From an uncultured Pirellulaceae bacterium (GTDB lineage: Bacteria > Planctomycetota > Planctomycetia > Pirellulales > Pirellulaceae), in assembly GCA_937981585.1 (NCBI GenBank), contig CALJOA010000051.1, positions 1 through 44,447 of the forward strand: DNA of 44,447 nucleotides. The letters are read 5' to 3'. Positions 7,371-28,664 of this stretch are shown piece after piece; position 1 is the first letter of the stretch, and every line of letters starts with the position of its first letter. Below the pieces are notes generated by a model. It was not told the DNA's origin. It searched no databases and saw nothing but the letters and a program-made list of their open reading frames with translations. A program made the translations under genes and the position numbers.

Positions 7371-8528
7371 CTAGCGGGCGTGAGTGAAGATTCCGTTGTT
7401 TTCTTCGGCTATTGTGCGCATCGTCTCGCGACCAAAGTTGGAGCCAAGCAGGATCGTGTGGATCGGAGTCAAGCGTTTAATGCCATCTGGACCCTTTCGC
7501 AGCCGGTTCCACTCTCTGAGGCCAAACATGGTATTGTCCCGCAATTCACCGTCAGAAAGAAAGTAAATCGCATCGGGCTTTTTCCTCAACGCCAGCCTGA
7601 TTGAGGTGCCTGGCCGAGTCCCGGCAAACGGCACTTGATCGCTTAGCCAGTTCCGGATCCGTCGCTTGTTCTCCTTCGTCGCAGCGATCAGTTTTTGATC
7701 CGTCGGAGCCCCAAACATCACGTAGTTTCGATCATTGTACAAAAGCACGAGAAACTTCTGTTTTCGGTCAAGCTGATCCAGCGTATCAAGCAGTTCATTG
7801 ACCGCCTGCTCCCACCGAGAAAGCTGCCCTAAGCTCGTACCTGAATACTGGGCCATACTGCTGGAGCGATCAATTACAAACACAAAATCAGAACCGTAGG
7901 ATTTGGTTCCAAAGAACTCGGTGGACTCTGACGCATCGTGCGGGCCGTGGTCGGTTCCGGCGATCGACTCGGATGAAAACTCTGGAAGACCAGTCATAAC
8001 AAACGGGTCAGCTGTATCATAGAGATCAGGCAACGCGGCTTGATCACTCAATTCAACTGTCGGCAATTCGGATTCGAGAAGCTCAGTTGCCTCCATCGAT
8101 TCAAGAGAATCTTCAATCGTTAGCTCTTCAAAAGTGATATCCGCGACCATCATTTCGCCGGGATTTTCAGTTTCAGCAAACTCAAGAAATATCGAACCGT
8201 CGTGCTGAGCAACGTAAGTGCAAGTTGCCAGCACCAAAAGCAACGCAAGATGGACAATGAAGCTCATCAACCAGCTGGGCAACATCATCAACGCAGCAAA
8301 CAAGCCTCGGTTTGGCTCCCATGATTCATCATTGTCAAAATCTAATGATGAACTGTCTTTTGAATTGACATTCGCTTGAGCCGAATCGGCAGCACCTGGA
8401 TCTGGTTGAGATTGCTGACGTTTAACAACGCGCAGCGGTGCCAACACCTCCAGCTTTGGAAGCACTCCCGTCAACGGCCCATCGTCATCCATCCAAATTG
8501 CCTTTCCTCGCCTGCCCGTCTGAGCCAT
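7371..8528 (-). CDS. membrane-anchored VWA-domain protein with a TonB-like helix
   Basis: The 385 residues comprise a ~75-residue cytoplasmic, polar N-terminus, one transmembrane helix (about 84-106), an acidic Glu/Leu-rich linker (112-200) and a C-terminal von Willebrand A domain (213-385). The metal-ion-dependent adhesion site is complete in outline: DRSSS at 220-224, Thr304 in a GTRPG turn, and LSDGE with Asp326. VWA domains bind ligands through a bound divalent metal. The helix carries Ser89-x-x-x-His93, with Leu100 and Thr104 at the spacing of the TonB Ser-His-Leu-Ser pattern; this suggests, but does not prove, coupling to an ExbB/ExbD motor. It is the first gene of the minus-strand block. 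The ligand is unknown. Confidence 0.8.
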   Translation of the reverse strand: MAQTGRRGKAIWMDDDGPLTGVLPKLEVLAPLRVVKRQQSQPDPGAADSAQANVNSKDSSSLDFDNDESWEPNRGLFAALMMLPSWLMSFIVHLALLLVLATCTYVAQHDGSIFLEFAETENPGEMMVADITFEELTIEDSLESMEATELLESELPTVELSDQAALPDLYDTADPFVMTGLPEFSSESIAGTDHGPHDASESTEFFGTKSYGSDFVFVIDRSSSMAQYSGTSLGQLSRWEQAVNELLDTLDQLDRKQKFLVLLYNDRNYVMFGAPTDQKLIAATKENKRRIRNWLSDQVPFAGTRPGTSIRLALRKKPDAIYFLSDGELRDNTMFGLREWNRLRKGPDGIKRLTPIHTILLGSNFGRETMRTIAEENNGIFTHAR

Positions 8529-16827: not shown

Positions 16828-17289
16828 CTACTGCTGAATCTCAAGCCGAACAGACGCGATCAACTCACCCGATTGTTGCCCAACCATATCGGTCTCAAAA
16901 CGGATAAGGTTCGAAAGCTCCAGAAGTGAACCCACGTCCACGCGCAGATCCGACTCAAGTGAGTTGGGCTCAAGTTTGGCCTGAGGTCTAACCTTAACCA
17001 ACCCACCGATCTCGCGGTCATTCAAGTAGACTTTGCCATCGATGCCGGCTTGCTCGATAACAAGCCAAACCGGTTGGTCCGGCTCAAGTCCGGTCGGGCG
17101 ATTGAAATTGCGCCGAAACTCGATTTGCCCACGGAAGTTTGATAGAGGCCAGGATTCCCATTGCAAGGGAACTTTGACCTTGAATTCGTGATCGATATCA
17201 ACGTCACAGTTGCCATCAAAAACAGCAAGGACCTTGGCAACCCAAGGTCCATGCAAGCGAATCGTGTGAATTTCTAGGTCTTCGTTCAA
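16828..17289 (-). CDS. small galactose-binding-like (GH2 sugar-binding-type) domain protein
   Basis: The frame is open from TTG 17355, but that would overlap the upstream pseudopilin gene by 62 nt. TTG 17289 begins 4 nt after the pseudopilin stop and precedes the conserved part, so it is preferred; this gives about 153 residues. WPLSNFRGQIEFRRNFNRP, VWLVIEQAGIDGKVYLNDREIGG and LLELSNLIRFE follow the beta-sandwich pattern of the N-terminal sugar-binding domain of glycoside hydrolase family 2. No catalytic domain and no signal peptide are seen. It probably shares a transcript with the pseudopilin gene. The ligand and location are unknown. Confidence 0.6.
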   Translation of the reverse strand: MNEDLEIHTIRLHGPWVAKVLAVFDGNCDVDIDHEFKVKVPLQWESWPLSNFRGQIEFRRNFNRPTGLEPDQPVWLVIEQAGIDGKVYLNDREIGGLVKVRPQAKLEPNSLESDLRVDVGSLLELSNLIRFETDMVGQQSGELIASVRLEIQQ

Positions 17290-17293
17290 GCCG

Positions 17294-18589
17294 CTACTCA
17301 GGAACGTAGCTTTGAATAACTGATGACTGATGGACTTGCCGAGTCGTTTTCTCAATCAGCCGAGTCGAGATCTGAATCCCGCGAACCGGGTAAGGGTAGG
17401 GCGGCCGAGTTTCACGCTCACCGTCATCGTCAGGAGCCGCCGTTCCACCATTATTGATCCCGTTAGTACCTTGATCTATTCCGTCAACACCATCTTGGTC
17501 AATTCCATCATGCTCGTACGAAGGTGACCAAGTATCGTAGGTCAAAGCCAGTTGCGACTTCGGAGCTGCAGCACCAGAAAACCACTCTGACGCATTTAGC
17601 CCCGTATAACCTAAATCAACAAATGCTCCAGCACTGGTGTTCAATGTAGTCGCGGAAGGGGAGTAACCAGGGTCTCCTGGTTCGACAAGAATCGTATCGG
17701 TGGAAGCACCAGAATAATGCACGGTCGCGTTGGGCGAATAAACGCGAACATCGAACCCAGCAACGTCGGTGAGCAGAATGTCTTCGCCATTGTCCTTGAG
17801 CAAAGGGTCAGCGGGATCGACTATCGTTGCTTTTTGAAACTGACTTGGAAATACGTTGGTGTGGGCAAATCGGTTTCTTCTGACCGCTAGATCAGCCAAT
17901 GTATTTGCAACGATATTGAAGCTGCCTGGAGAAGTCTGGACAACCCGAACCGACACGTCGTTGTTGCGAACAAACGCTGCAACATCACCCACATTTTGAC
18001 CCGTCTCAAGCACGCCCAAATCAGGTCGAATCAACAATGCCCTACGATGCAGTCGAACAGAATCTTCAATCTCCACTGTGCCAGAACTATCCAAATCATT
18101 GATCGTCGTGAAGTACCAGACCTCAGCAATCGTTGATTCGATTACATCCCCATTTAACGTTCCCCGAAACTTGCGGCCATCAGCGCTGCGAACCGTCATG
18201 CCAATCGAGTCATCTATGTCGCCTAAGTAATTGGCCGCGAGCGTGTTTGCGTTGGCAGCATCGTTTCCAGCCCCTTCAACAATCTCCAAAAACCCGCTGG
18301 GCGACATCGACTCGGTGTAAGGTCTGGGATCGAGCGTTAGGTTTGCCAAGTCGTTCCGCAACAGCTCTTCGGCTGAACGAAGACGGTTGGCCATCTCCAT
18401 CACACCACGACCCATTTGCATTTTTTCGCTTGCGTAACGAAATGCCGACATCATCGCGCCTAAGACGATCAAGGTCATCGTCAACGCGATCATAATTTCG
18501 ATCAGAGTCAAACCGCGCTTTGCGGCGCGCTTGGTAACGAGCTTCCCAATTGGTTTGGATGAGAATCGGGTTTGAGAAACAGTCATCAA
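17294..18589 (-). CDS. pseudopilin of the PulJ/GspJ-PilW type
   Basis: A prepilin signal is plain: after a basic leader, KRG|LTLIE places the peptidase cut after Gly26 and the conserved Glu at mature position 5. The hydrophobic helix IEIMIALTMTLIVLGAMMSAF follows, as in type II secretion minor pseudopilins and type IV pilins. The 431 residues continue as a beta-rich globular domain with Asp-rich turns (DGIDQDGVDGIDQ near 385), possibly a calcium site. Pseudopilins assemble in the inner membrane and form the secretion piston tip. No other secretion or pilus gene is in the window, so it probably uses machinery encoded elsewhere. ATG 18589 is followed by a second ATG; either could start the leader. 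Confidence 0.85.
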   Translation of the reverse strand: MMTVSQTRFSSKPIGKLVTKRAAKRGLTLIEIMIALTMTLIVLGAMMSAFRYASEKMQMGRGVMEMANRLRSAEELLRNDLANLTLDPRPYTESMSPSGFLEIVEGAGNDAANANTLAANYLGDIDDSIGMTVRSADGRKFRGTLNGDVIESTIAEVWYFTTINDLDSSGTVEIEDSVRLHRRALLIRPDLGVLETGQNVGDVAAFVRNNDVSVRVVQTSPGSFNIVANTLADLAVRRNRFAHTNVFPSQFQKATIVDPADPLLKDNGEDILLTDVAGFDVRVYSPNATVHYSGASTDTILVEPGDPGYSPSATTLNTSAGAFVDLGYTGLNASEWFSGAAAPKSQLALTYDTWSPSYEHDGIDQDGVDGIDQGTNGINNGGTAAPDDDGERETRPPYPYPVRGIQISTRLIEKTTRQVHQSSVIQSYVPE

Positions 18590-19353
18590 AGCTCCTTTGG
18601 AGGGATGTGGCAGCTACGTGCTATTTTCCACAAATGATACGGTGAACGTAAAGCGAAAAAGAACATCTGTTGGCACTCGCAGCGACCGAAAGGGAGGGGT
18701 CACGTCCGTCAAGCACCGATTGGCTCAGGAAAAGCTTTTCCATTCTACAACTCCACTTTTGATTGTACACGTTATTTTACGTGTCCCATGGTTAATACAT
18801 CGTCAGTTTTGCCCAGATCAGCCACAAAACCCGCTATATGAAGACTGAGGAAACCCACTCGAACCTCAAAACGCCAATCGGATTGAGGCTCTGCCAACCG
18901 CTCGATCTGGACAGTTTGTCAGCCAGCAGTAGCAATCGGCTCCCTCTCACTGCACTCAGACTTTTGGTTTTAGGCTGAACCGTGATGCACTTCCGTTCAT
19001 ACATACACTACTGGATATGCAAATTCTTCCAACAGGCTTGGCTTTCACCAGCTTTCAGACCAACGATTGATTCAAGTTTCTGGTGGAAAGTTCGGTTGGG
19101 TTGTAGATAATGAAGGCCCGTAAATTTACTGGTGGTTTGTCAGCATTGAATTTTAGGATTAGCCGTTTTGGCGATAGCCACGGTTGCCGGGAAAAACCGG
19201 GGGCTATCGCCCAAACGGCTAATATTAAACGCCTAATATTGAAACTGGGACTGATCGCCCAAGCGGCCAAAAATTTCGACAAACCACTAGCTCAATCAAA
19301 CCAAGCAACGTCGTCTCACGTCTTCCCAAGAAGACAAGTACTACCAGTAGAAA
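18590..19353. other. 764 bp intergenic region with palindromes
   Basis: The region lies between the divergent pseudopilin and TPR genes. Near the pseudopilin start is a perfect 14-bp palindrome, GGAAAAGCTTTTCC (18728-18741), and an inverted pair ACACGT-TATTTT-ACGTGT (18767-18784); both are possible operator sites, by position only. The right part holds a family 2 repeat (19158-19223) nested inside a 10-bp inverted pair. Open frames here are shadows of the repeat. I see no gene. Confidence 0.6.
19158..19223. repeat. AGCCGTTT-GGCGATAGCC palindromic repeat, family 2
   Basis: The arms AGCCGTTTTGGCGATAGCC and GGCTATCGCCCAAACGGCT pair over 19 bp with one mismatch and are extended by ATT/AAT. An outer inverted pair GTGGTTTGTC (19132-19141) and GACAAACCAC (19278-19287) encloses the element plus an extra half-arm (ATCGCCCAAGCGGCC). 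The composite lies upstream of the TPR gene. Confidence 0.8.
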
Positions 19354-22300
19354 ATGAACTATCTAAACCGACCCCAATTCAGGTTAAGAGCCATCGCAAT
19401 TTTAGCCCTGCTGATCTCGGCAAGCTGTTTTGGACCAGGACAATCGATCGTCAATGCCGCTACCCAAGACGACGCTGGCCAGCGGATTTTTGAAACAGCC
19501 AGCTTGGCTCAGAACAATGAGTCCTATGAGTTTGCGATCAATGAATGGGACAAACTCCTGACACAGCATCCGAATTCGGAGCTGGTCCCGCGCGCCAATT
19601 ACAACGCCGGCGTCTGCAGCCTCCAGCTGGGACAATATGAAAAAGCGATCGAATATTTCAAAGCGGCTTCTCCGAAACTTGACCAAGAGTCAGGCCTCAA
19701 ACCAAAGTCAAATCTGTTTCTCGGTTTCGCTCAATTTCGTCACGGCAAAGACCTCAAAGAAGCTGGAACTCTATCGCAACAAGCGACCACTTTATTGACG
19801 ACCGCAACCCAAACGTTCGCAAGCCTACGGAGTTCAGAACCAAATTTCGAAGAGATAGATCAAGCCTGCTTTTTTCAAGGTGGCGCATTTGAGGAGCTTG
19901 GTCGTGATGAAGAAGCGGTCAAGTCGTACACGCAAATGCTGACCTACGCCAAACAGACTTTCAAATACGAAGGCCTGTTTGCCTTGGCTGATGCGGAAGC
20001 CAGACTGGGCCGGTATTCCAAGGCCCTCGAACACTACAATGCGTTTCGCACTGCCGCCAAATCCGAAGGCGGCCACCCGATGCTTAAGGACGTGGACCTC
20101 GAAGCCGGTCGGACCCTGATCCGCCTGGCGATCGCCGAGGAAAAGAGCGGCAACACTGATTCCGTCAACCAACAGCTCACTCAAGCCATCGAAATTCTCG
20201 CTCCGCTGTCGGCTCAAGATGTCGCGAGTCAAGAATCGGACGACGAGAAATTGATCGTTGAAGAAGCCCGATTTCAACAGGCATTTTGCGAATCCCGATT
20301 GGGTCGCTACGAAAAATCCGCCGGCCTTTACGCTTCGATTGCCGACAATCCCAAATCACCTCGTGCCGCCCAATCGCTGGTCAATGCGGGTCGTAACTAC
20401 ATCAACGCCCAACAGATCGACAAGGCAACCGTCGTTCTGGAAAAATCGTTGACGACCGATTCGAAATATGCGGCCGACGCGGCCCACTGGCTGGCCGAAG
20501 AAATCTATCTCAAATCTGAACCTGCACAGGCACAAAAAGCCTACGATCTCGCGACGTCGTGGATCTCAAAGTTAACCAGTGATCCAGCGACCGAAGGTTC
20601 CACAATCCTAGTATCGCTGAAGATGGACCAAGCCAACGCGATCTACGCGATGCCCGAGCGGCGCAAGGATTCGGTCGCGCTCTACCAAGAGATCGTCGAC
20701 AAACATTCCGATCATTCACTAGCTCCGCAGTCGTTGTACAACGCCGCGTTCGCATCACTTGAATTGGGCGACTACAAAAAAGCGATCGAGCAGGCCACTG
20801 CGTTTGAAACAGCCTACGCTTCATCCGACTATCTACCTGACACACTTGAAATCAAAGCCGACGCGTTGATGCTCGACGAACAACCCGAGCGAGCTGCCAA
20901 AGTTTTTGATCAGCTTGCGTCAAAGTTCTCTGATAACGAAAAAGCTCCGCTTTGGAAACTCGGAGCCGCGCGGTCGCTTTATATTCAAAAGCAGTACCAG
21001 CCCACGATCGACAAACTCCAACCAGTCGTTGGAACTCTGACCGATCCGGAAGTCAAAGCCGAAGCGCTGCACTGGATCGGATCGAGTCATTTTCAATTGA
21101 AAGATTATGCAAACGCTGCCGCCTCGCTTTCCAATGGCAGCCAGCTCAATGACAAATGGCGGCGTGCGGACGAAACGTTGTTGACGCTTTGCCAAGCCCA
21201 AATGGCGAACAAGCAAGTCGAGGCGGGCAAGCAAACGGCGTCCACGATGATTACCAAGTTTCCAAAATCGCCATTGCTCAGTGACCTGTACTATCACCTT
21301 GGTCGTCAGGCTTACGACGCCGAGCAGTTTGAAGAAGCGATCAAGAACTTTGAGCAGATCATCAAGAACTACGCCGATTCACGCTTTGCGCCTTATGCTC
21401 TTTATGATGCCGCGTGGAGCAAGATGGAACTGAAGAAGTTTGACGAATCTGAGAAGCTTTTCGCCACGCTGATGAGCAAGTTCCCCAAACACGAGCTGGC
21501 TCACAAGAGTAAGGTCGGCCGAGGTGCTTCGCTCCGAAAAACCGGTAACACAGAAGCTTCCATCGCAGAGTTGAAGGAGTTTATCGCAACCGGAAACGCA
21601 TCCGGACAAGCCAAATCGAATGCACTGTTTGAAATCGGCCTCAATCAGGTCGAATTGAAAAAATGGGACGATGCCATTGGCACTTTTAACCAGCTAATCA
21701 CCGAGTTTCCTGACTCGCCAAAACTGGACCGGTTTTATTACGAGCTGGCTTGGGCTCACAACTCGAAATCCGAAAAGGACAAGGGACTGGAGTATTTCAC
21801 CAAACTGGCAACCGAAAAACCGGACAGCCTTTTGGCTGGTGAATCGAATTTTCACGTGGGCACTTCTGCCTACGACGCTGGCAAGTTCGAAGAAGCCGTC
21901 AAAGCCTACACCGCTTGCCTGACTTCAAAAGCAGACGATCACGTGCGCGAGAAAGCCGCTTACAAACTTGCCTGGGCTCACTACAAACAAAATAAATTTG
22001 AACCTGCACTAAAGGCGTTCACCACCCAAACGGAATCGTTCCCAAAAGGCGACCTGCACACCGACGGGTTGTTCATGGTCGCCGAGTCACAGTTCCGTCT
22101 GAAGAACCACTCCGCGGCGCTGGCGGCGTACGAAAAAGCCCAACCGGCGATCAACGCTTCTAAAACCATTGAACCGAAAATCAAATGGCTCACAATGTTG
22201 CACGGCTCGCAAAGTGCCAATCAGGCGGGCCAGTACGATGCCGCAGTCAAGCTGGCATCTGGAATGGAATCGACCGAGGCTGACATCACTTACAAACAGG

Positions 22301-22734
22301 ACGCCGCCCTTGAACTGGGAACTGCTTACGCTTCCCTCAATCAACCTGAACAGGCGATGAAGTATTACCGCACCGCCGCAGAAAACCTCGGACGAACCGG
22401 GGCTCGAGCGCGTTGCATGATCGGCGACATGCATTTCGCAAACAAAAAGTTCCAGGATGCCGAGAACGAATTCAAATTGGTCTACTTCGGATTCGGAGGC
22501 CCCCAAGCTGCCGACGACGTCAAACCGTGGCAAGCCTACGCGATTTACGAAGCGGCTCGTTGCAGTTTCGTCCAAGTCGCAACTGCTCCCGAAGAATCGA
22601 AACAAAAACTGATCACTGAATCAATCCGGCAGTTTGAATATCTCATCAAAAACTATCCCGATGACAAACTTGCTCCCGAAGCCAAACGACAACTGGAAAC
22701 ACTTGCAAAACTAAAAAGTAGCTACTCAAGCTGA
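19354..22734 (+). CDS. large secreted tetratricopeptide-repeat protein
   Basis: The 1126 residues begin with a signal peptide (RLRAIAILALLISASCFGPG, likely cut after VNA at 35). They then consist almost wholly of TPR-type helical pairs; repeats such as YNAGVCSLQLGQYEKAIEYF and YHLGRQAYDAEQFEEAIKNFEQI are easy to see and run to about 1110. TPR arrays are protein-binding scaffolds. The repeats resemble those in YbgF/CpoB and BamD-like envelope proteins. The protein precedes exbB, exbD and the toroid gene on one strand, so it is probably a periplasmic partner of that motor. A similar pairing is known for TtpC, a TPR-containing partner of TonB systems in Vibrio. The exact role is unknown. Confidence 0.88.
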   Translation: MNYLNRPQFRLRAIAILALLISASCFGPGQSIVNAATQDDAGQRIFETASLAQNNESYEFAINEWDKLLTQHPNSELVPRANYNAGVCSLQLGQYEKAIEYFKAASPKLDQESGLKPKSNLFLGFAQFRHGKDLKEAGTLSQQATTLLTTATQTFASLRSSEPNFEEIDQACFFQGGAFEELGRDEEAVKSYTQMLTYAKQTFKYEGLFALADAEARLGRYSKALEHYNAFRTAAKSEGGHPMLKDVDLEAGRTLIRLAIAEEKSGNTDSVNQQLTQAIEILAPLSAQDVASQESDDEKLIVEEARFQQAFCESRLGRYEKSAGLYASIADNPKSPRAAQSLVNAGRNYINAQQIDKATVVLEKSLTTDSKYAADAAHWLAEEIYLKSEPAQAQKAYDLATSWISKLTSDPATEGSTILVSLKMDQANAIYAMPERRKDSVALYQEIVDKHSDHSLAPQSLYNAAFASLELGDYKKAIEQATAFETAYASSDYLPDTLEIKADALMLDEQPERAAKVFDQLASKFSDNEKAPLWKLGAARSLYIQKQYQPTIDKLQPVVGTLTDPEVKAEALHWIGSSHFQLKDYANAAASLSNGSQLNDKWRRADETLLTLCQAQMANKQVEAGKQTASTMITKFPKSPLLSDLYYHLGRQAYDAEQFEEAIKNFEQIIKNYADSRFAPYALYDAAWSKMELKKFDESEKLFATLMSKFPKHELAHKSKVGRGASLRKTGNTEASIAELKEFIATGNASGQAKSNALFEIGLNQVELKKWDDAIGTFNQLITEFPDSPKLDRFYYELAWAHNSKSEKDKGLEYFTKLATEKPDSLLAGESNFHVGTSAYDAGKFEEAVKAYTACLTSKADDHVREKAAYKLAWAHYKQNKFEPALKAFTTQTESFPKGDLHTDGLFMVAESQFRLKNHSAALAAYEKAQPAINASKTIEPKIKWLTMLHGSQSANQAGQYDAAVKLASGMESTEADITYKQDAALELGTAYASLNQPEQAMKYYRTAAENLGRTGARARCMIGDMHFANKKFQDAENEFKLVYFGFGGPQAADDVKPWQAYAIYEAARCSFVQVATAPEESKQKLITESIRQFEYLIKNYPDDKLAPEAKRQLETLAKLKSSYSS

Positions 22735-22746
22735 GCGCTCATCGAT

Positions 22747-22809
22747 AGTAGCGCGGCTGTCCCAGCCGTGTTATTGCAGCTTGTTCACGGCTGAGACAGC
22801 CGTGCTACT
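22747..22809. repeat. AGTAGC...GCTACT palindromic repeat, family 1
   Basis: This is a 63 bp copy, with left half CGGCTGTCCCAGCCG and right half CGGCTGAGACAGCCG. It is 12 bp after the stop of the TPR gene and before exbB. It shares ATCGATAGTAG at its left border with the 37684 copy. It may stabilise or trim the transcript between the two genes. Confidence 0.8.
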
Positions 22810-22906
22810 CAACGAATCCAATTAGAAAAACTAGCACTTGGATCTCGAGGTTTGAACGCCGCGTCGCGCAACCAGCGTTGGCGCAAAAACTAATATCGGA
22901 GTCACA

Positions 22907-23887
22907 ATGCATTTTTCCTTTTCAACATCCCAAACCAGATCAAATCGATTCGTAGTTGGGTTTTGTTTGATCGTGCTAAGCTTTTTGGCTTACACGTGCA
23001 GCAACATCCAAGGTCAACAAGTATCGATTCAATCAGGTGTTGGAGCAGCGGTAATCGCCAGTGCTCCACTGGCTCCCCAAGCCAAGGAAGCAGCATCTGA
23101 CGGAACGCAGCGGCGAGGAATCAACTTCCTTTCGTTGCTGACCCAAGGCGGCTGGTTCATGCTTCCGCTTTTGGTACTTTCGATTGCCGTGGTCACCATC
23201 GGAATTGAGCGTTACCTGGCGCTGCGTCGTGAGAAAGTATTTCCTCCCGAACTGATCGACCAGCTTTCGTTACTCAGTCAATCCGATGGAGGACTCGACC
23301 CTCGCCGGGCCTATCAAACGTGTCAGCGATATCCTTCATCGGCGGCTTACGTCCTACGTTCGATGCTGGTCAAAGTCGGTCGTCCACAACTTGAGATCGA
23401 AAACTCAATCAACGAAGCGAGCCAACGAGAAGCAACTCGATTGACCCAAATGACATCATGGCTGAGTCTTGCCGCTGCGATCGCGCCACTGATTGGATTG
23501 CTTGGAACCGTTTGGGGAATCACCCAAGCGTTCTACGATACCACCCAGCTGGCGGAGCTTAACGCTGGACAGAATCGCGGCGTCGCATTGGCTAACGGAA
23601 TTTATGTCGCGCTGGTAACCACGATGGTCGGATTGATGATCGCAATCCCGGCTGCGGTGCTTTCGCACTTTTACGAGAACCGGATCGTTCAGTTACTCAA
23701 CGAAATCAAAGAAATGGCGAGCAACCTGCTGCCGCAATTCGAGCGTTACGAAGGTCAAGTCAGATTCACCCAAGGCGTCGGGGACGTCTCAAGTGACTTT
23801 GACGGAGGAAAGCCTTCGGAAGACGCCTCGGCTCCGCTTGCGGACACGGAACAGAATTCCAAACAAGGAAAACGAGTCGCCCGCTGA
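22907..23887 (+). CDS. exbB: ExbB/TolQ/MotA-family proton channel subunit
   Basis: The protein is the channel subunit of a proton-motive-force motor in the inner membrane. An N-terminal hydrophobic, signal-like segment (VVGFCLIVLSFLAYTCSNIQG, to ~37) and a linker precede the three canonical helices. These are GGWFMLPLLVLSIAVVTIGIE (81-101), SWLSLAAAIAPLIGLLGTVWGI (184-205) and NGIYVALVTTMVGLMIAIPAAVL (230-252). The APLIGLLGTVWGI motif and Thr residues in helices 2 and 3 (201, 238-239) match ExbB positions that line the pore. The 326-residue length exceeds E. coli ExbB because of the N-terminal extension and an acidic tail. The gene is followed after 174 bp by exbD. Confidence 0.92.
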   Translation: MHFSFSTSQTRSNRFVVGFCLIVLSFLAYTCSNIQGQQVSIQSGVGAAVIASAPLAPQAKEAASDGTQRRGINFLSLLTQGGWFMLPLLVLSIAVVTIGIERYLALRREKVFPPELIDQLSLLSQSDGGLDPRRAYQTCQRYPSSAAYVLRSMLVKVGRPQLEIENSINEASQREATRLTQMTSWLSLAAAIAPLIGLLGTVWGITQAFYDTTQLAELNAGQNRGVALANGIYVALVTTMVGLMIAIPAAVLSHFYENRIVQLLNEIKEMASNLLPQFERYEGQVRFTQGVGDVSSDFDGGKPSEDASAPLADTEQNSKQGKRVAR

Positions 23888-23945
23888 CTTCCTCGCAACC
23901 GTCGCGACATCGTAGTGAACGACAACCCGCAGAGGCCGAGAATTT

Positions 23946-24011
23946 ATTAGCCGTTTGGGCGATAGCCCCGGTTAAACACCATTAACCGTGGCTATCGCCA
24001 AAACGGCTGAT
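23946..24011. repeat. AGCCGTTT-GGCGATAGCC palindromic repeat, family 2
   Basis: The arms AGCCGTTTGGGCGATAGCC and GGCTATCGCCAAAACGGCT pair with one mismatch and are extended inward by CCGGTTAA...TTAACCG. The element lies in the 174 bp gap between exbB and exbD, inside an apparent operon, so a hairpin here could process the transcript and change the ExbB:ExbD ratio. That effect is inference. Confidence 0.8.
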
Positions 24012-24061
24012 GTTGTTACTTTTTTTTCAAAAACGTTCTTCATCTTTTCTAAAACAAAACT

Positions 24062-24475
24062 ATGTCAGTAAGCATCAAACGCACTTCGGCCGTCGGATCG
24101 CTCAGCATCACGCCTTTGATTGATGTCGTGTTCCTGCTGCTGATCTTCTTCCTCGTCTCTTCCAGATTCTCTGAGGAAGAACGCGAATTGGACCTGAACC
24201 TGCCAAGTGTCACAGAAGCCCTTCCCGCTATGGCACAACCTCATGAGCTGGTCGTCAACATTGACGCACAGGGCCGCTACTACATCGACGGTGGGTTCCG
24301 GCAACTCGAACAAGTCGAACAAATCCTGCGCAGAGCCAAAACAAACAATCCGCTTACACAAACTGTCGTCATCCGGTGCGATAAGAAAACCGAATGCGAA
24401 CCGATGCTGGTAGCCATCGGGCTTTGTAAAAAAGTGGGCATCAACGAATACACTGCTACTATCGATGAACACTGA
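24062..24475 (+). CDS. exbD: ExbD/TolR-family proton channel subunit
   Basis: This 137-residue protein has a short cytoplasmic N-terminus, one transmembrane helix (about 19-36, LIDVVFLLLIFFLVSS) carrying Asp21, which is the proton-carrying residue in ExbD and TolR, and a periplasmic domain ending in a TolR-like fold. ExbD dimers sit within the ExbB pentamer and transmit proton flow to a TonB/TolA-like partner. It starts at ATG 24062 and is followed 58 bp later by the TonB-like toroid protein, the likely partner. Confidence 0.93.
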   Translation: MSVSIKRTSAVGSLSITPLIDVVFLLLIFFLVSSRFSEEERELDLNLPSVTEALPAMAQPHELVVNIDAQGRYYIDGGFRQLEQVEQILRRAKTNNPLTQTVVIRCDKKTECEPMLVAIGLCKKVGINEYTATIDEH

Positions 24476-24533
24476 CGGCCATCGGTCATCAATCACAGAC
24501 AGCAAAACCACAATCTCAAATCCCTGAATCGCC

Positions 24534-27500
24534 TTGAAGCGTAGAACCGTCCACAAGATAGAACCTGCCGCAAAGCAGAGCACATTGGACCATCAGTTTT
24601 GGCCAGTGCTGGTTGCGTTGACGGTTCTGTGTGGAATTGGGATGGGCGCTGTGTTGACGATTCTTCGTGGTCCCTGGCTATGGGGTAGCCTGCTGGTGCT
24701 TCCGCTGCTTGCCATCGGTGCAGTGTTCGCCCTGTTCCATTTGGACAATCATAGGCTTCGCCGCTCACTCCAGTTTGCGATTCTCCTGAGCCTGTCGCTT
24801 CACCTGCTGGTCATGGTGTTCGCATCGGTGATCAACATTTTCCAGAATCCCTATACGCCACAGGAAAAGCGGGTCGCCCAACGACGCGTTCGAGCAATCG
24901 AAGTTAGCGATCGTCGCGCGTCTTTCGTTTGGGAAGAGACAAACTCCAGAGATACGCCTGAACCCGAAGTCGCGCCTGACAAAGTCGAACGGCCCACGAC
25001 CACCCAAAAGAAACCTCAACCGGTTCCAGTCAAGGAAGAAGTCAAACCCGATATTTCGCCGCAACTGGTTCGCAAAGAAAAGCCAGTCGAATCGATTCCT
25101 CGCCAGAATCCTGAACTCTCTCGGCTTCAGCGACAGACTCAAAAGACGATCAAGTTAAAGTCCAGCCAAAAAGCAGTTGGCAAGACCAAGCAAGCCAAAA
25201 CAAAACCGGCAAAGTCCAGCCAGAAAAAGCCCAACCAAACAAAGCCGGACACAAAAGTCGAAAGCTCTCCCAAAGACGACTCGCTGGCCAAAAAGACCGA
25301 GCCAGCAAGTCGACCCAAACCGGTAATGCGAACACCTGCTCCCAAATCGACCTCGGCACCCAAGACTTCCCCGCGACCTGAAATGTCACCTGCTCCCTCG
25401 TCTCCGCGACGCGCACAGTTGGCGGATCGTAAAGTCGACTCGGCCGCCAATCCTTCTCCGTCTCAAGCCCGAACCAAGAAAACGACTCCCAACATTCCTC
25501 TGGCAAAAAGTAAAACGACGGCTTCAGAGAAAATCGCTTCTGCTCCAGCACCCAAACGAGCCGAGCTGCAACCTTCAAAAACCGCTGATCAGCTGATCAA
25601 ACGACCAACCAAATCGGCAACCAACAAACCGGCAATGACCAACAAGCCGACCGTATCGCTCAGCCCCAAATCACAGCTTGCCCGGTCAGTCACCCGGCGC
25701 AAGCCCAACCCGGTCAAGCCGACGATCTCAACCGAAACTTCACCAACTATGACCCCGCGGCGAGCGGTCACCGAAGCCTCGGTCGCCGTCACACCCAATC
25801 CGATCGAGAATCCTTCGCGTGCTCCGCAGTCCAATACGGCGTCGCGACAACTAAGCTCCAAAACTGTGTCCGTAACCAAAAGCACGACCGGCATGACCGG
25901 TGCTGGACGTTCGGAAAATCTTGACCGATTCGTTGGGGGAATCGAAAGCCGTGCCGTGCGAGCATCTGATTCTGCCCGGCGCGAACGAACAACCAACAAA
26001 TCTACCGACGCCCGGATGCTCTCGTCGTCTTCAAAATCCGAAGTTCGCCGAACCGTGGGAGAAACCAAGCTCCCAACCAGCGCGTTCAAGGCCGAAACGT
26101 CTGGTGCCGCAAAAATCGCCGGAACAACATCTCCACGCAGTAAAACCGTCGAATCTTCTGCGGCTCAAATTGACTCTCGGACAGGTTCAACGCGGGATCA
26201 GATTTCAGCGGAGAGGGGTTCAGCGTCGGTTGATATCGGACCAACCAAAATCGTCGCGGGCCGACAGTCGACTCGGCGGAGCGGCGGTGGCCAACCCGAG
26301 GTCTCACAGCTTGACCCTGACTCAACTCGTCGATCCAAAGACCGTTCGGATGTCCAACCGACCTTGGTCGCAGCAACGGCTGGAAGTGTAGCGGCACCTC
26401 GCAACCAATCCGCCATGACGCCAGCCACAGAGGCTTTTGAAGCGTCCGACAAAGCAACGTTCGCCTCTCGGACCGGTGGTGAATCGGAAATCACGGCTGA
26501 GCGTTGGTCATCCCAAAACGCTGGCGAGATTTCCAATCAAGGACAATCCGACACTGCAGAACAATTTGTCGACTCCCGCCGCCGCGCCCAACACAACGAG
26601 GATCAAGCCAGTTGGGATGAAGATGAGGACGAAGACGAAGAGAACCTCCGCGGCAATCGTCGAACTCGCACCGCTCAATCACCAGTGATCAACATAGCGC
26701 CCGGACTTGGGATTGCAAAATCAGATGGCCGCTCGGCCGCCAATCCCGATCAAACCGGTGATTCCCCCTCCGAATCAGTTGCTGCAGTTGTTCGCCGCCA
26801 GTCAACCGCCATGCTGCCTGGGTCTGGGCTAGGCCAGACAGCCGCCAATGCATTGCTTTCGGCGGCAACGTCGCTGCCGATCATCGAATCAACGCCTAGC
26901 CGGCGCACCGGCCGGGGCAGCTCGACCGCACCTCAAACCGAAATTAGTTCTGATTTGGTCGGTGGCGCCAATGAGCGCGGATCAAGATCGTTGCTTCCCG
27001 ACCTCTCACCAACGATGTCAGGCATGGCAACCAACGCTCCAGCGGCCGCCAGTTCGAATCCGGCGGCAGCATCAGCGTCGTCAGCAACCAGTGCGATCGA
27101 AGCGCTTGATGCGGCATCGGTTTCGTTGTCGCGGTCGAACCTGGAATCCATGGACGAAATTCAGGGAAGCGAACTTGATATCCAGGCCATCGAAGGTCCG
27201 GCTGGATTGGGCATGCGACCCGACAGTTTTGTTGGGGTCATGGCCCGGCCTTCATCCAAGGAAAGTAAGCAACTCCAGCCCGATTTCGACAACCGTTTCA
27301 AGAACGATAAATTCGGCGGAACTCCAACCATCAATCCGGACGCCGTGATCGCACGTGAAGCCTTCAAAAACCGTAGCCCTGCGGCGATGGCCAATGTCAC
27401 CGAACCGACCACCGAAGCCGCAATTCATTTGGGCTTGGAATTTTTGGCTCGTCACCAGTCGCCCGACGGTAGCTGGGCGTTGGGTGGATTTGACAAAAAC

Positions 27501-28664
27501 GAACCGCAACACGTTTCGCAGCTTCAGAGCGATACCGCTGCGACCGGATTGGCACTGCTCGCGTTCCAGGGAGCTGGTTTCAACCACCGCGAGTTCAAGT
27601 ACGCTCGGCAAATCGATCACGCCATCCAGTGGTTGATCGAAAACCAGTCAGCTGATGGCGGGCTTTATGTTCCCACCAACGCAAAATCCGATAACGCATG
27701 TCGGCTTTACAGTCACGGGATCGCGGCTCTGGCACTAACCGAAGCCTACGGGATGACCCAAGACGTTCGCCTCAAGCAGGCCGCTCAAAAGGCGCTTGAT
27801 TACATCTCCGAGTCTCGCGACCCACGCAAAGGCGGCTGGCGTTACTTTGACGCCCCCGGAAAAAAATCAACTGATACTTCGGTTTCAGGCTGGATGATGA
27901 TGGCGCTGCAAAGCGGCCGACTGGCAGGTCTTGAAGTGGACCAGAACTGTTTCGACGGACTCGACGACTGGCTCGACGTTGCCGCTGATCCAGATAATGA
28001 ATCACTCTACCGCTACAACCCGTATGCAGTCGACTCAAAGGGCGTGTCGCGAATTCAAGGCCGAAAACCATCGCCCACGATGACGTCGGTTGGACTGCTG
28101 ATGCGAGTTTACAGCGGCTGGGATAAAAACGATCCGCGTTTGGTCGCCGGAGCACAGTACATGCTCGACACCCAAATGCCCAGCGACGCGACGCCGCAAC
28201 AACGTGATACTTATTACTGGTACTACGCAACCCAGGTTCTCAAACATGTCGGAGGTGATATGTGGGTTGCCTGGAATGAAAAGCTTCGTCCGCTTCTGAC
28301 TCGTTCGCAGGAGACTTCGGGTGATCTGGCTGGAAGCTGGCATCCTTACAAACCGGTTCCCGATCGTTGGGGTTCGTTCGGTGGACGCATTTACGTCACC
28401 GCAATGAATCTGCTTTCATTGGAAGTCCGACATCGAATGCTGCCGATCTACCGTGGTGAGGAACCAAGTCTCGACGGATCCGTTGTTCCAGGATCCGTTA
28501 TTCCATTGACCGAAGAGGTTTCGACTTCGGTTGCACCCGTCACGACAAAACCACAACCTCACCCCAAGCCCAAACCTGTCAGACCCGAAGCAAACCCAAA
28601 AACTTCTTCGGCAACTCCGACTCAACGTACGATTCGAAAGAAACCTGCGGTACCTTGGCCCTGA
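24534..28664 (+). CDS. TonB-like membrane protein with long linker and C-terminal alpha/alpha-toroid
   Basis: The 1376 residues have three parts. (1) Residues ~22-103 hold three transmembrane helices. The third (RRSLQFAILLSLSLHLLVMVF) contains Ser86-x-x-x-His90, the Ser/His pair that TonB uses to engage ExbB/ExbD, although the TonB Leu and Ser further along are Ala and Asn here. (2) Residues ~105-950 are a Lys/Pro/Ser/Thr/Arg-rich linker with a short acidic patch near 700, long enough to span a periplasm. (3) Residues ~955-1305 form a prenyltransferase/squalene-cyclase-like toroid with repeats such as LGLEFLARHQSPDGSWALG and AIQWLIENQSADGGLY. No DxDD-type cyclase motif is evident, so a binding role is more likely than catalysis. 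The TTG 24534 start lacks a clear ribosome site. It follows exbD in the operon. Confidence 0.8.
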   Translation: MKRRTVHKIEPAAKQSTLDHQFWPVLVALTVLCGIGMGAVLTILRGPWLWGSLLVLPLLAIGAVFALFHLDNHRLRRSLQFAILLSLSLHLLVMVFASVINIFQNPYTPQEKRVAQRRVRAIEVSDRRASFVWEETNSRDTPEPEVAPDKVERPTTTQKKPQPVPVKEEVKPDISPQLVRKEKPVESIPRQNPELSRLQRQTQKTIKLKSSQKAVGKTKQAKTKPAKSSQKKPNQTKPDTKVESSPKDDSLAKKTEPASRPKPVMRTPAPKSTSAPKTSPRPEMSPAPSSPRRAQLADRKVDSAANPSPSQARTKKTTPNIPLAKSKTTASEKIASAPAPKRAELQPSKTADQLIKRPTKSATNKPAMTNKPTVSLSPKSQLARSVTRRKPNPVKPTISTETSPTMTPRRAVTEASVAVTPNPIENPSRAPQSNTASRQLSSKTVSVTKSTTGMTGAGRSENLDRFVGGIESRAVRASDSARRERTTNKSTDARMLSSSSKSEVRRTVGETKLPTSAFKAETSGAAKIAGTTSPRSKTVESSAAQIDSRTGSTRDQISAERGSASVDIGPTKIVAGRQSTRRSGGGQPEVSQLDPDSTRRSKDRSDVQPTLVAATAGSVAAPRNQSAMTPATEAFEASDKATFASRTGGESEITAERWSSQNAGEISNQGQSDTAEQFVDSRRRAQHNEDQASWDEDEDEDEENLRGNRRTRTAQSPVINIAPGLGIAKSDGRSAANPDQTGDSPSESVAAVVRRQSTAMLPGSGLGQTAANALLSAATSLPIIESTPSRRTGRGSSTAPQTEISSDLVGGANERGSRSLLPDLSPTMSGMATNAPAAASSNPAAASASSATSAIEALDAASVSLSRSNLESMDEIQGSELDIQAIEGPAGLGMRPDSFVGVMARPSSKESKQLQPDFDNRFKNDKFGGTPTINPDAVIAREAFKNRSPAAMANVTEPTTEAAIHLGLEFLARHQSPDGSWALGGFDKNEPQHVSQLQSDTAATGLALLAFQGAGFNHREFKYARQIDHAIQWLIENQSADGGLYVPTNAKSDNACRLYSHGIAALALTEAYGMTQDVRLKQAAQKALDYISESRDPRKGGWRYFDAPGKKSTDTSVSGWMMMALQSGRLAGLEVDQNCFDGLDDWLDVAADPDNESLYRYNPYAVDSKGVSRIQGRKPSPTMTSVGLLMRVYSGWDKNDPRLVAGAQYMLDTQMPSDATPQQRDTYYWYYATQVLKHVGGDMWVAWNEKLRPLLTRSQETSGDLAGSWHPYKPVPDRWGSFGGRIYVTAMNLLSLEVRHRMLPIYRGEEPSLDGSVVPGSVIPLTEEVSTSVAPVTTKPQPHPKPKPVRPEANPKTSSATPTQRTIRKKPAVPWP

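Follow-up and report, generated by a model that had tools for sequence, protein, structure and literature searches.

A candidate proton-driven force transducer with an α/α-toroid head, encoded beside an ExbB/ExbD motor and a TPR protein in planctomycetes

The closest described counterparts of the gene cassette considered here are the von Willebrand factor A (vWA) force transducers of the Planctomycetes-Verrucomicrobia-Chlamydiae (PVC) group and other bacteria (Williams-Jones et al. 2025, PMC12204202). In the portion of that report that was available, genes for a tetratricopeptide repeat (TPR) protein and for TolQ- and TolR-like subunits accompany a transducer with a Ser/His inner-membrane helix, a disordered linker and a globular head other than that of TonB. 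The Tol-Pal system (TolQRA with CpoB) likewise combines a motor, an anchored transducer and a periplasmic TPR protein, and the Vibrio TonB2 system includes a TPR-containing protein, TtpD2, which the available part of its description gives as essential for siderophore uptake (PMC6957404). With these we compare a locus in a 44,447-nucleotide stretch of DNA, hereafter the window, from an uncultured Pirellulaceae bacterium (assembly GCA_937981585.1, contig CALJOA010000051.1, positions 1 to 44,447 of the forward strand). Four consecutive genes of the window code for a TPR protein, an ExbB/TolQ-like channel subunit, an ExbD/TolR-like subunit and a TonB/TolA-like protein with an α/α-toroid head, termed TOR. 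This cassette probably encodes a proton-driven trans-envelope force transducer, comprising an ExbB/ExbD motor, docking through the third helix of TOR, the toroid as head and the TPR protein as scaffold. Its parts are as follows:

19354..22734, plus strand: TPR protein, 1126 residues; a signal peptide (read by eye), then a TPR solenoid with helices at residues 33-1125
22907..23887, plus strand: ExbB/TolQ-like channel subunit, 326 residues; an N-terminal hydrophobic stretch and an extension ahead of the first transmembrane helix (TM1)
24062..24475, plus strand: ExbD/TolR-like subunit, 137 residues, with the proton-carrying Asp21
24534..28664, plus strand: TOR, 1376 residues, TonB/TolA-like with an α/α-toroid head; TTG start
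24606..24743, plus strand: helices 1 and 2 of TOR (best hydropathy windows at residues 25-43 and 52-70), an extra hairpin before the TonB-type helix
24777..24833, plus strand: helix 3 of TOR (best hydropathy window at residues 82-100), the TonB-type helix with Ser86-xxx-His90
24843..27323, plus strand: linker of TOR, about 828 residues, rich in Ser, Ala, Thr and Pro
27390..28451, plus strand: toroid head of TOR (residues about 953-1306), from the AlphaFold2 model and the profile match
28470..28661, plus strand: C-terminal Pro/Lys-rich tail of TOR, before which most matches in the genus end

All four genes lie on the same strand, and the gaps between them (172 nt from the TPR gene to exbB, 174 nt from exbB to exbD and 58 nt from exbD to the TOR gene) make it likely, as far as sequence can tell, that they form one operon. 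Pfam assigns their products to TPR families, MotA_ExbB (2e-24), ExbD (3e-23) and SQHop_cyclase_C (4.1e-7), the two motor proteins lying above the cut-offs of their families, and the order of secreted TPR protein, ExbB, ExbD with Asp21 and toroid protein given in a preliminary description of this DNA is borne out. The TPR protein has a hydrophobic stretch at residues 9-32, is modelled by AlphaFold2 as an all-helical solenoid (pLDDT 88.7, pTM 0.58), and scores over the cut-offs of both the YbgF and the BamD TPR models.

The same description had likened the last protein of the cassette to TonB and TolA in its build, and this comparison stands: Ser86-xxx-His90 lies in the third of three hydrophobic helices and the long linker follows it. 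As in TonB, the linker contains Pro and Lys, its charge being basic by the membrane and slightly acidic by the head, and hydropathy and charge together point to an N-in topology. The hairpin of helices 1 and 2 is also present in most of the displayed relatives belonging to the same cassette type, which we call system 1. At its C-terminus TOR has no match to the TonB C-terminal domain PF03544 (Pfam, E up to 0.1), nor was any TolA domain matched by Pfam; as had been proposed, a toroid takes this place. Its AlphaFold2 model, built on an alignment of 38 toroids, is confident (pLDDT 87.9, pTM 0.89), and squalene-hopene cyclases are its top matches by Z-score (Z 26.8 for 8paj, rmsd, the root-mean-square deviation, being 3.0 over 293 residues). 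Orthologues in the genus align up to residue 377-407 of the 446-residue query, that is, to a point before the C-terminal tail. We know of no force-transducing system in which a toroid is the working end; the toroid of TOR may be the moving or ligand-binding end.

The observations support the four genes being a conserved, co-inherited unit in relatives of the window. The nearest 79 loci, for which the best 80 relatives were kept, represent nearest kin rather than a random sample, and among the matches listed the nearest record with a name is a Mariniblastus metagenome-assembled genome (79% identity over the toroid). All four genes are found at 44 of these 79 loci, and ExbD lies just upstream of TOR at 57. 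Where at least 5 kb of upstream sequence is available (52 loci), the full set of four is present at 38 loci, ExbB plus ExbD at one, ExbD alone at five and no motor gene at eight, so that ExbD precedes TOR at 44, at 39 of them together with ExbB. Within the genus 17 loci were fetched around the orthologue, three of which (L056-L058) lie on contigs that start inside TOR; the remaining 14 all show ExbB-ExbD-TOR, preceded by the TPR gene in 13, while the contig of the fourteenth begins inside ExbB. Orthologues of ExbB (E<1e-100) and TOR (E<1e-160) are both present in the same 18 of the 25 genus genomes and both absent from the same seven, a pattern with a chance probability of 2e-6 if the genomes were independent; as they are related, it may reflect a single loss or gain. 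The co-occurrence of the four genes in planctomycetes, anticipated in the preliminary description, is thus upheld, and we regard the cassette as being beyond chance because the same order recurs across tens of loci. ExbD-TOR pairs in which no ExbB or TPR gene was detected, despite at least 5 kb upstream, were noted at L132, L150 (Blastopirellula marina DSM 3645), L155, L172 and L179; at these loci the missing motor parts would have to come from another place.

A second, paralogous TPR-ExbB-ExbD-TOR cassette, designated system 2, also exists. In many genomes ExbB and toroid matches lie on a shared contig at a second place, and of 20 such places fetched on this criterion 16 contain the four genes in the same order; of the rest, the L203 locus stops within ExbB, and one recognised gene is lacking at each of L206, L212 and L215. 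L219 has two extra open reading frames (ORFs) ahead of TOR. Of the seven genus genomes lacking system 1, at least five have system 2 (their loci are among the 16 full cassettes), and no system-2 cassette was found in the window's own genome, which is 80% complete. TOR proteins of system 2 comprise about 630-750 residues with a median linker of 248.5 residues (202-285, n=22), and those of system 1 have a median linker of 804.5 residues (374-1813, n=58); these figures are grouped by tree clade, the divergent cassettes L063, L114 and L117 falling outside system 1, and cover only proteins fitting the motif pattern used. A linker ranging from 374 to 1813 residues fits a tether and not a part of fixed length. 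The ExbB tree separates system 1 (n=62, support 0.98) from system 2 (n=22, support 1.0) and leaves three divergent ExbBs in neither clade. The two systems likewise form distinct clades of the TOR tree, without any member changing sides (supports 0.98 and 0.67); the system-1 clade there additionally contains 11 ExbD-only toroids and 19 lone ones, the latter category including loci on contigs that end within TOR or shortly before it.

Toroids extend well beyond the cassettes. The toroid profile has matches in 140 of 148 genomes of the phylum, 127 of them strong (E<1e-40) and 13 with weak matches only (E>1e-20) that may be other proteins, at most 13 candidates per genome being scored. Genomes contain 5-16 matches and at most two cassettes were seen in any one, many toroid genes being lone (e.g. 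C153 and C142 of the window's own genome, neither with an adjoining motor gene). The preliminary description had raised the concern that the toroid gene might occur mostly without exbB and exbD. This is not so within the orthologue group, as the counts at the 52 loci show, whereas in the family as a whole many copies do stand alone. These lone proteins mostly have one helix, often with P-x-W-x-x-S-x-x-x-H, followed by a linker (median 99 residues over the 66 proteins that fit the motif pattern used, loci at contig ends being included among the lone ones) and the toroid; that they keep the TonB-type helix argues for the force-transducer idea. At one group of distant loci the neighbours of lone toroid genes include a transcription-repair-coupling-factor-like protein and ribonuclease III, which are housekeeping genes and uninformative. 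Toroid genes often form tandem pairs in distant planctomycete genomes (L083, L084, L088, L089, L092, L093 and L119), and such pairs could give rise to heteromeric heads.

A helix census, in which the two motif positions were masked in scoring although the profile had been trained on Ser-xxx-His helices, recovered a TonB-type helix in 147 of 167 distinct toroid ORFs; 12 of the other 20 start at a contig edge. The position of TonB His20 is occupied by His in 131 of the 147 helices and by Asn in five, with Ser four residues before it in 124. Eleven rows show neither His nor Asn, in some of which the wrong helix was picked: L114, L117, L133 and L140 carry His, and L169 Asn, in the correct helix. 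Ser-xxx-His is present in 75 of 88 helix-bearing toroid ORFs, as against 12 of 211 control ORFs (12 of 478 helices), the controls being the other helix-bearing ORFs from the first 46 large loci; among 61 system-1 relatives it is present in 42. A natural Asn at the position equivalent to TonB His20 was noted at L062, L139, L166, L169, L195, L196 and L247. Asn reportedly substitutes fully for His20 of TonB, as the title of a 2011 paper by Swayne and Postle, cited in PMC8928145, has it, and the Asn exceptions in toroid helices therefore fit TonB.

Aligned with TolQ/ExbB and ExbD chains, the motor subunits retain the threonine ring and aspartate of TonB-ExbB-ExbD. Asp21 is conserved in 83 of the 84 ExbDs compared, and Thr201 and Thr239 (equivalents of ExbB Thr148 and Thr181) are kept in 71 and 70, respectively, of 71 aligned ExbBs. 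Pro248, which aligns with Pro190, is Pro in 68 of the 71. Ser92, Ser in 69 of the 71, aligns by eye with Ser34, which together with Trp38 contacts Ser16/His20 of TonB according to the available part of PMC12215075.

The fold of the head invites a different explanation, in which the toroid is an enzyme (a terpene-cyclase-like or glycan-acting α/α-barrel) merely anchored in the membrane, ExbB and ExbD serve something else, and the cluster is a loose one. The toroid profile matches squalene-hopene cyclase (3.6e-18), and the head shares fold and QW-like repeats with the toroids of class II terpene cyclases, differing from them as a single toroid that is anchored and presumably periplasmic. Runners-up by Z-score are drimenyl diphosphate synthase (about 24) and, at about 22-24, sugar epimerases, GH76 mannanases and AprG. 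The last of these, a sugar enzyme, heads the Foldseek list by E-value (3.3e-6), narrowly ahead of squalene-hopene cyclases, and complement thioester-containing chains appear low down in it. Of the 35 invariant columns in the toroid alignment several are polar or aromatic (e.g. Y135, D190, Y303, Y306, Y307, R361 and T365, model numbering), and several of these residues sit immediately ahead of the presumed inner helices or among their first ten residues, where active-site residues of such folds are often found; in the model this placement hints at a ligand pocket. Lone copies such as C153 and C142, seemingly without an adjoining motor gene, would also accord with a free-standing enzyme. On the other hand, the cyclase DxDD string occurs in only 7 of 96 toroid ORFs and is thus not conserved, and the thioester GCxEQ occurs in none of the 96. 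An enzyme of this kind would further leave unexplained the TonB-type helix, the joint presence and absence with ExbB and the second cassette, and we consider it distinctly unlikely. A squalene-cyclase enzyme was rejected as the principal interpretation because DxDD is not conserved, other catalysis being possible, and an enzyme head may itself sit on a driven arm. Of the folds with which the preliminary description had proposed comparing the toroid, squalene-hopene cyclase is matched, and a head of the α2-macroglobulin or complement thioester type was discarded for want of GCxEQ.

A further line of evidence comes from the usual clients of such motors. TonB_C, TonB_2 and TolB_N each have no match in the 25 genus genomes with Pfam models (the TolA C-terminal family was not searched genome-wide). 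With no TonB C-terminal domain or TolB, the ExbB/ExbD motors of these genomes, which contain 4-7 ExbB-like matches apiece, probably drive something other than TonB or TolB. Two more ExbB-ExbD-ExbD clusters with TPR proteins nearby were noticed in the window's own genome (L076 and L077). The search for the TonB-dependent receptor barrel gave a match in one of the 25 genomes of the genus and none in the incomplete genome to which the window belongs. The Ton/Tol type of ExbB and ExbD might be taken to mean that the cassette is an ordinary TonB system with an odd TonB C-terminus that still serves outer-membrane receptors; given the toroid head, the lack of TonB_C and TonB_2 matches in the genus and the single genome with receptors, this is highly improbable and was dropped. 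In the wider phylum TonB_C and toroids do occur together, being found in 105 and 140 of 148 genomes, respectively, and because TonB_C is so common there its absence from the genus is a property of the lineage. In a family of the same class (f18), TonB_C occurs in 1 of 12 genomes and toroid matches, 6-10 per genome, in all 12.

TolB_N (PF04052) is missing from all 40 genomes searched (the 25 of the genus and 15 others of the order), against 3 of 14 control genomes with a match, including E. coli. This, the TolA-like topology of TOR and the score of the TPR protein over the YbgF cut-off, which is matched by that for BamD, would suit a replacement for Tol-Pal, in which the cassette would take on the organisation of outer membrane or cell wall during division in a lineage lacking TolB. 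Such a role would be a special case of the force transducer, and we think it rather unlikely, if less so than a merely anchored enzyme: system 1 is absent from 7 of 25 genus genomes, although system 2 is present in at least five of the seven, no division gene was seen among the scanned flanking genes (Pal was not searched for), and the sole recurring neighbour examined is present at 15 of 61 loci.

That neighbour is a pseudopilin-like gene with an N-methylation motif, accompanied by a small gene and lying divergently from the TPR gene in the window (16828-18589, minus strand). Such a gene lies divergent from the TPR gene, no more than 3 kb away on the upstream side, in 15 of the 61 cassettes outside the 20 system-2 loci, among them 12 of the 40 where the upstream room exceeds 1.8 kb, and in none of 18 system-2 loci; on these counts it was rejected as a general partner from which function might be read. 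Two related intergenic palindromes, resembling a repetitive extragenic palindromic (REP) element, lie upstream of the cassette (19152-19229) and between exbB and exbD (23946-24011); their arms of 28-30 nt are 89-90% complementary, and the two are 84% complementary to each other over 67 nt. A further palindrome-like stretch was read by eye at about 22748-22808.

TtpC, cited in the preliminary description as a TPR partner in Vibrio, is presumably not a TPR protein. That citation was probably a slip, the protein named in the available part of PMC6957404 being TtpD2. The Vibrio TonB2 system resembles the cassette in having a TPR gene in the operon of an ExbB/ExbD/TonB system, and differs, in that part of its description, by ttpD2 coming last in order, a classical TonB and the extra proteins TtpB and TtpC. 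The likeness to the vWA force transducers is closer. The cassette shows their synteny of TPR, tolQ, tolR and transducer genes, with a single ExbD where, in the part of PMC12204202 available, the vWA systems have a pair; as described there, the vWA linker is about 100 residues, far below the median of system-1 TOR, whose three helices and α/α toroid in place of the vWA fold set it further apart. The claim that the system is of an undescribed type must accordingly be given up, since TPR, TolQ, TolR and a non-TonB head are already published with a vWA head in what was available of that paper; for the same reason the toroid proteins are most aptly regarded as bearing another type of head within the vWA-transducer class. 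The word "squalene" is absent from the main text of PMC12204202, and no report of a toroid-headed transducer was listed by searches of the openly licensed PubMed Central (PMC) literature.

The window itself contains an apparent member of the published class, about 11 kb from the cassette and with no adjoining motor gene among its Pfam-scanned neighbours:

7371..8528, minus strand: vWA-like sister-class protein, 385 residues, with an SFIVH (SxxxH) helix, a linker and a vWA-like head; stand-alone

This protein matches a helix-only profile with E 2.4e-5 and VWA_2 with 2.9e-5 (25.1 bits, just below the cut-off of 27), and to judge from these matches it apparently belongs to the vWA force transducers. 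In the window's own genome the helix-only profile gave eight matches at E<=1, which comprise two toroid proteins, three proteins with vWA-like heads (one of them the protein at 7371-8528), a membrane protein that we take for a succinate dehydrogenase subunit and two weak matches (E about 0.4); the three-helix TOR of the window was not recovered. Across 12 genomes of the order, 30 loci fetched of 41 matches contain 22 toroid heads and eight others, a split that leans to toroids, the profile having been built from toroid proteins, several of them within the searched genomes. Seven of the eight non-toroid heads match vWA families (E<=0.01), only two of them exceeding the curated cut-off; the eighth, L255, has no such match.

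Taken together, these results are compatible with the following mechanism for the proposed transducer. The inner-membrane motor would consist of ExbB and ExbD, probably as a pentamer and a dimer, respectively, and TOR would dock against the outside of ExbB via helix 3 with Ser86 and His90, in the manner of TonB and TolA. The presumably disordered periplasmic arm would take the toroid head toward the outer membrane or cell wall; there it may grip a ligand or partner that motor motion would pull or release. The periplasmic TPR solenoid would probably be an adaptor or docking scaffold for the head, comparable to CpoB in Tol and TtpD2 in TonB2.

Several observations weigh against this mechanism. 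The full SHLS motif is not kept, Leu at His+7 being present in 39 of 79 and Ser at His+11 in 8 of 79, and the TOR of the window has Ala97 and Asn101 at these positions; the Leu and Ser are, in the available part of PMC12215075, less conserved in Ton as well. Among the 61 system-1 relatives, 15 have Cys, Gly or Ala instead of Ser, one has Asn instead of His, and three were scored as without a motif (L053 has no His, L129 one helix only, and L173 shows SVLVH by eye). At the ExbB position that by-eye alignment pairs with Trp38, 52 of 71 sequences have Val, so that, in contrast to TonB-ExbB-ExbD, the Trp is not conserved. Motor genes are wanting at the eight loci with none and incomplete at the five with ExbD only, and lone toroid copies, if driven, must borrow a motor. 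Finally, the absence of TonB and TolB rests on Pfam models and partly incomplete genomes, TonB_2 being a weak model here that matches 1 of 14 control genomes.

The planctomycete cell envelope is unusual and its energisation is poorly known. The cassette offers a concrete candidate for this function, with motor, arm, head and scaffold conserved together in two paralogous sets, and it sits in a genus where the clients that such a motor usually serves were not detected. The proposed mechanism makes a sharp prediction, namely that a single His (or Asn) couples the head to the motor. More tentatively, and as a possibility that we would put somewhat below an even chance, planctomycetes may possess phylum-wide proton-driven arms that share one docking helix and bear exchangeable toroid or vWA heads; these would be the main clients of ExbB/ExbD in lineages without detectable TonB or TolB, two toroid types would have their own motor and TPR scaffold, and the toroid would grip a ligand, perhaps a glycan or lipid, and perhaps act on it catalytically. 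The toroid cassette itself adds another head fold to the recently proposed class of vWA transducers, and this suggests a modular design of trans-envelope motors.

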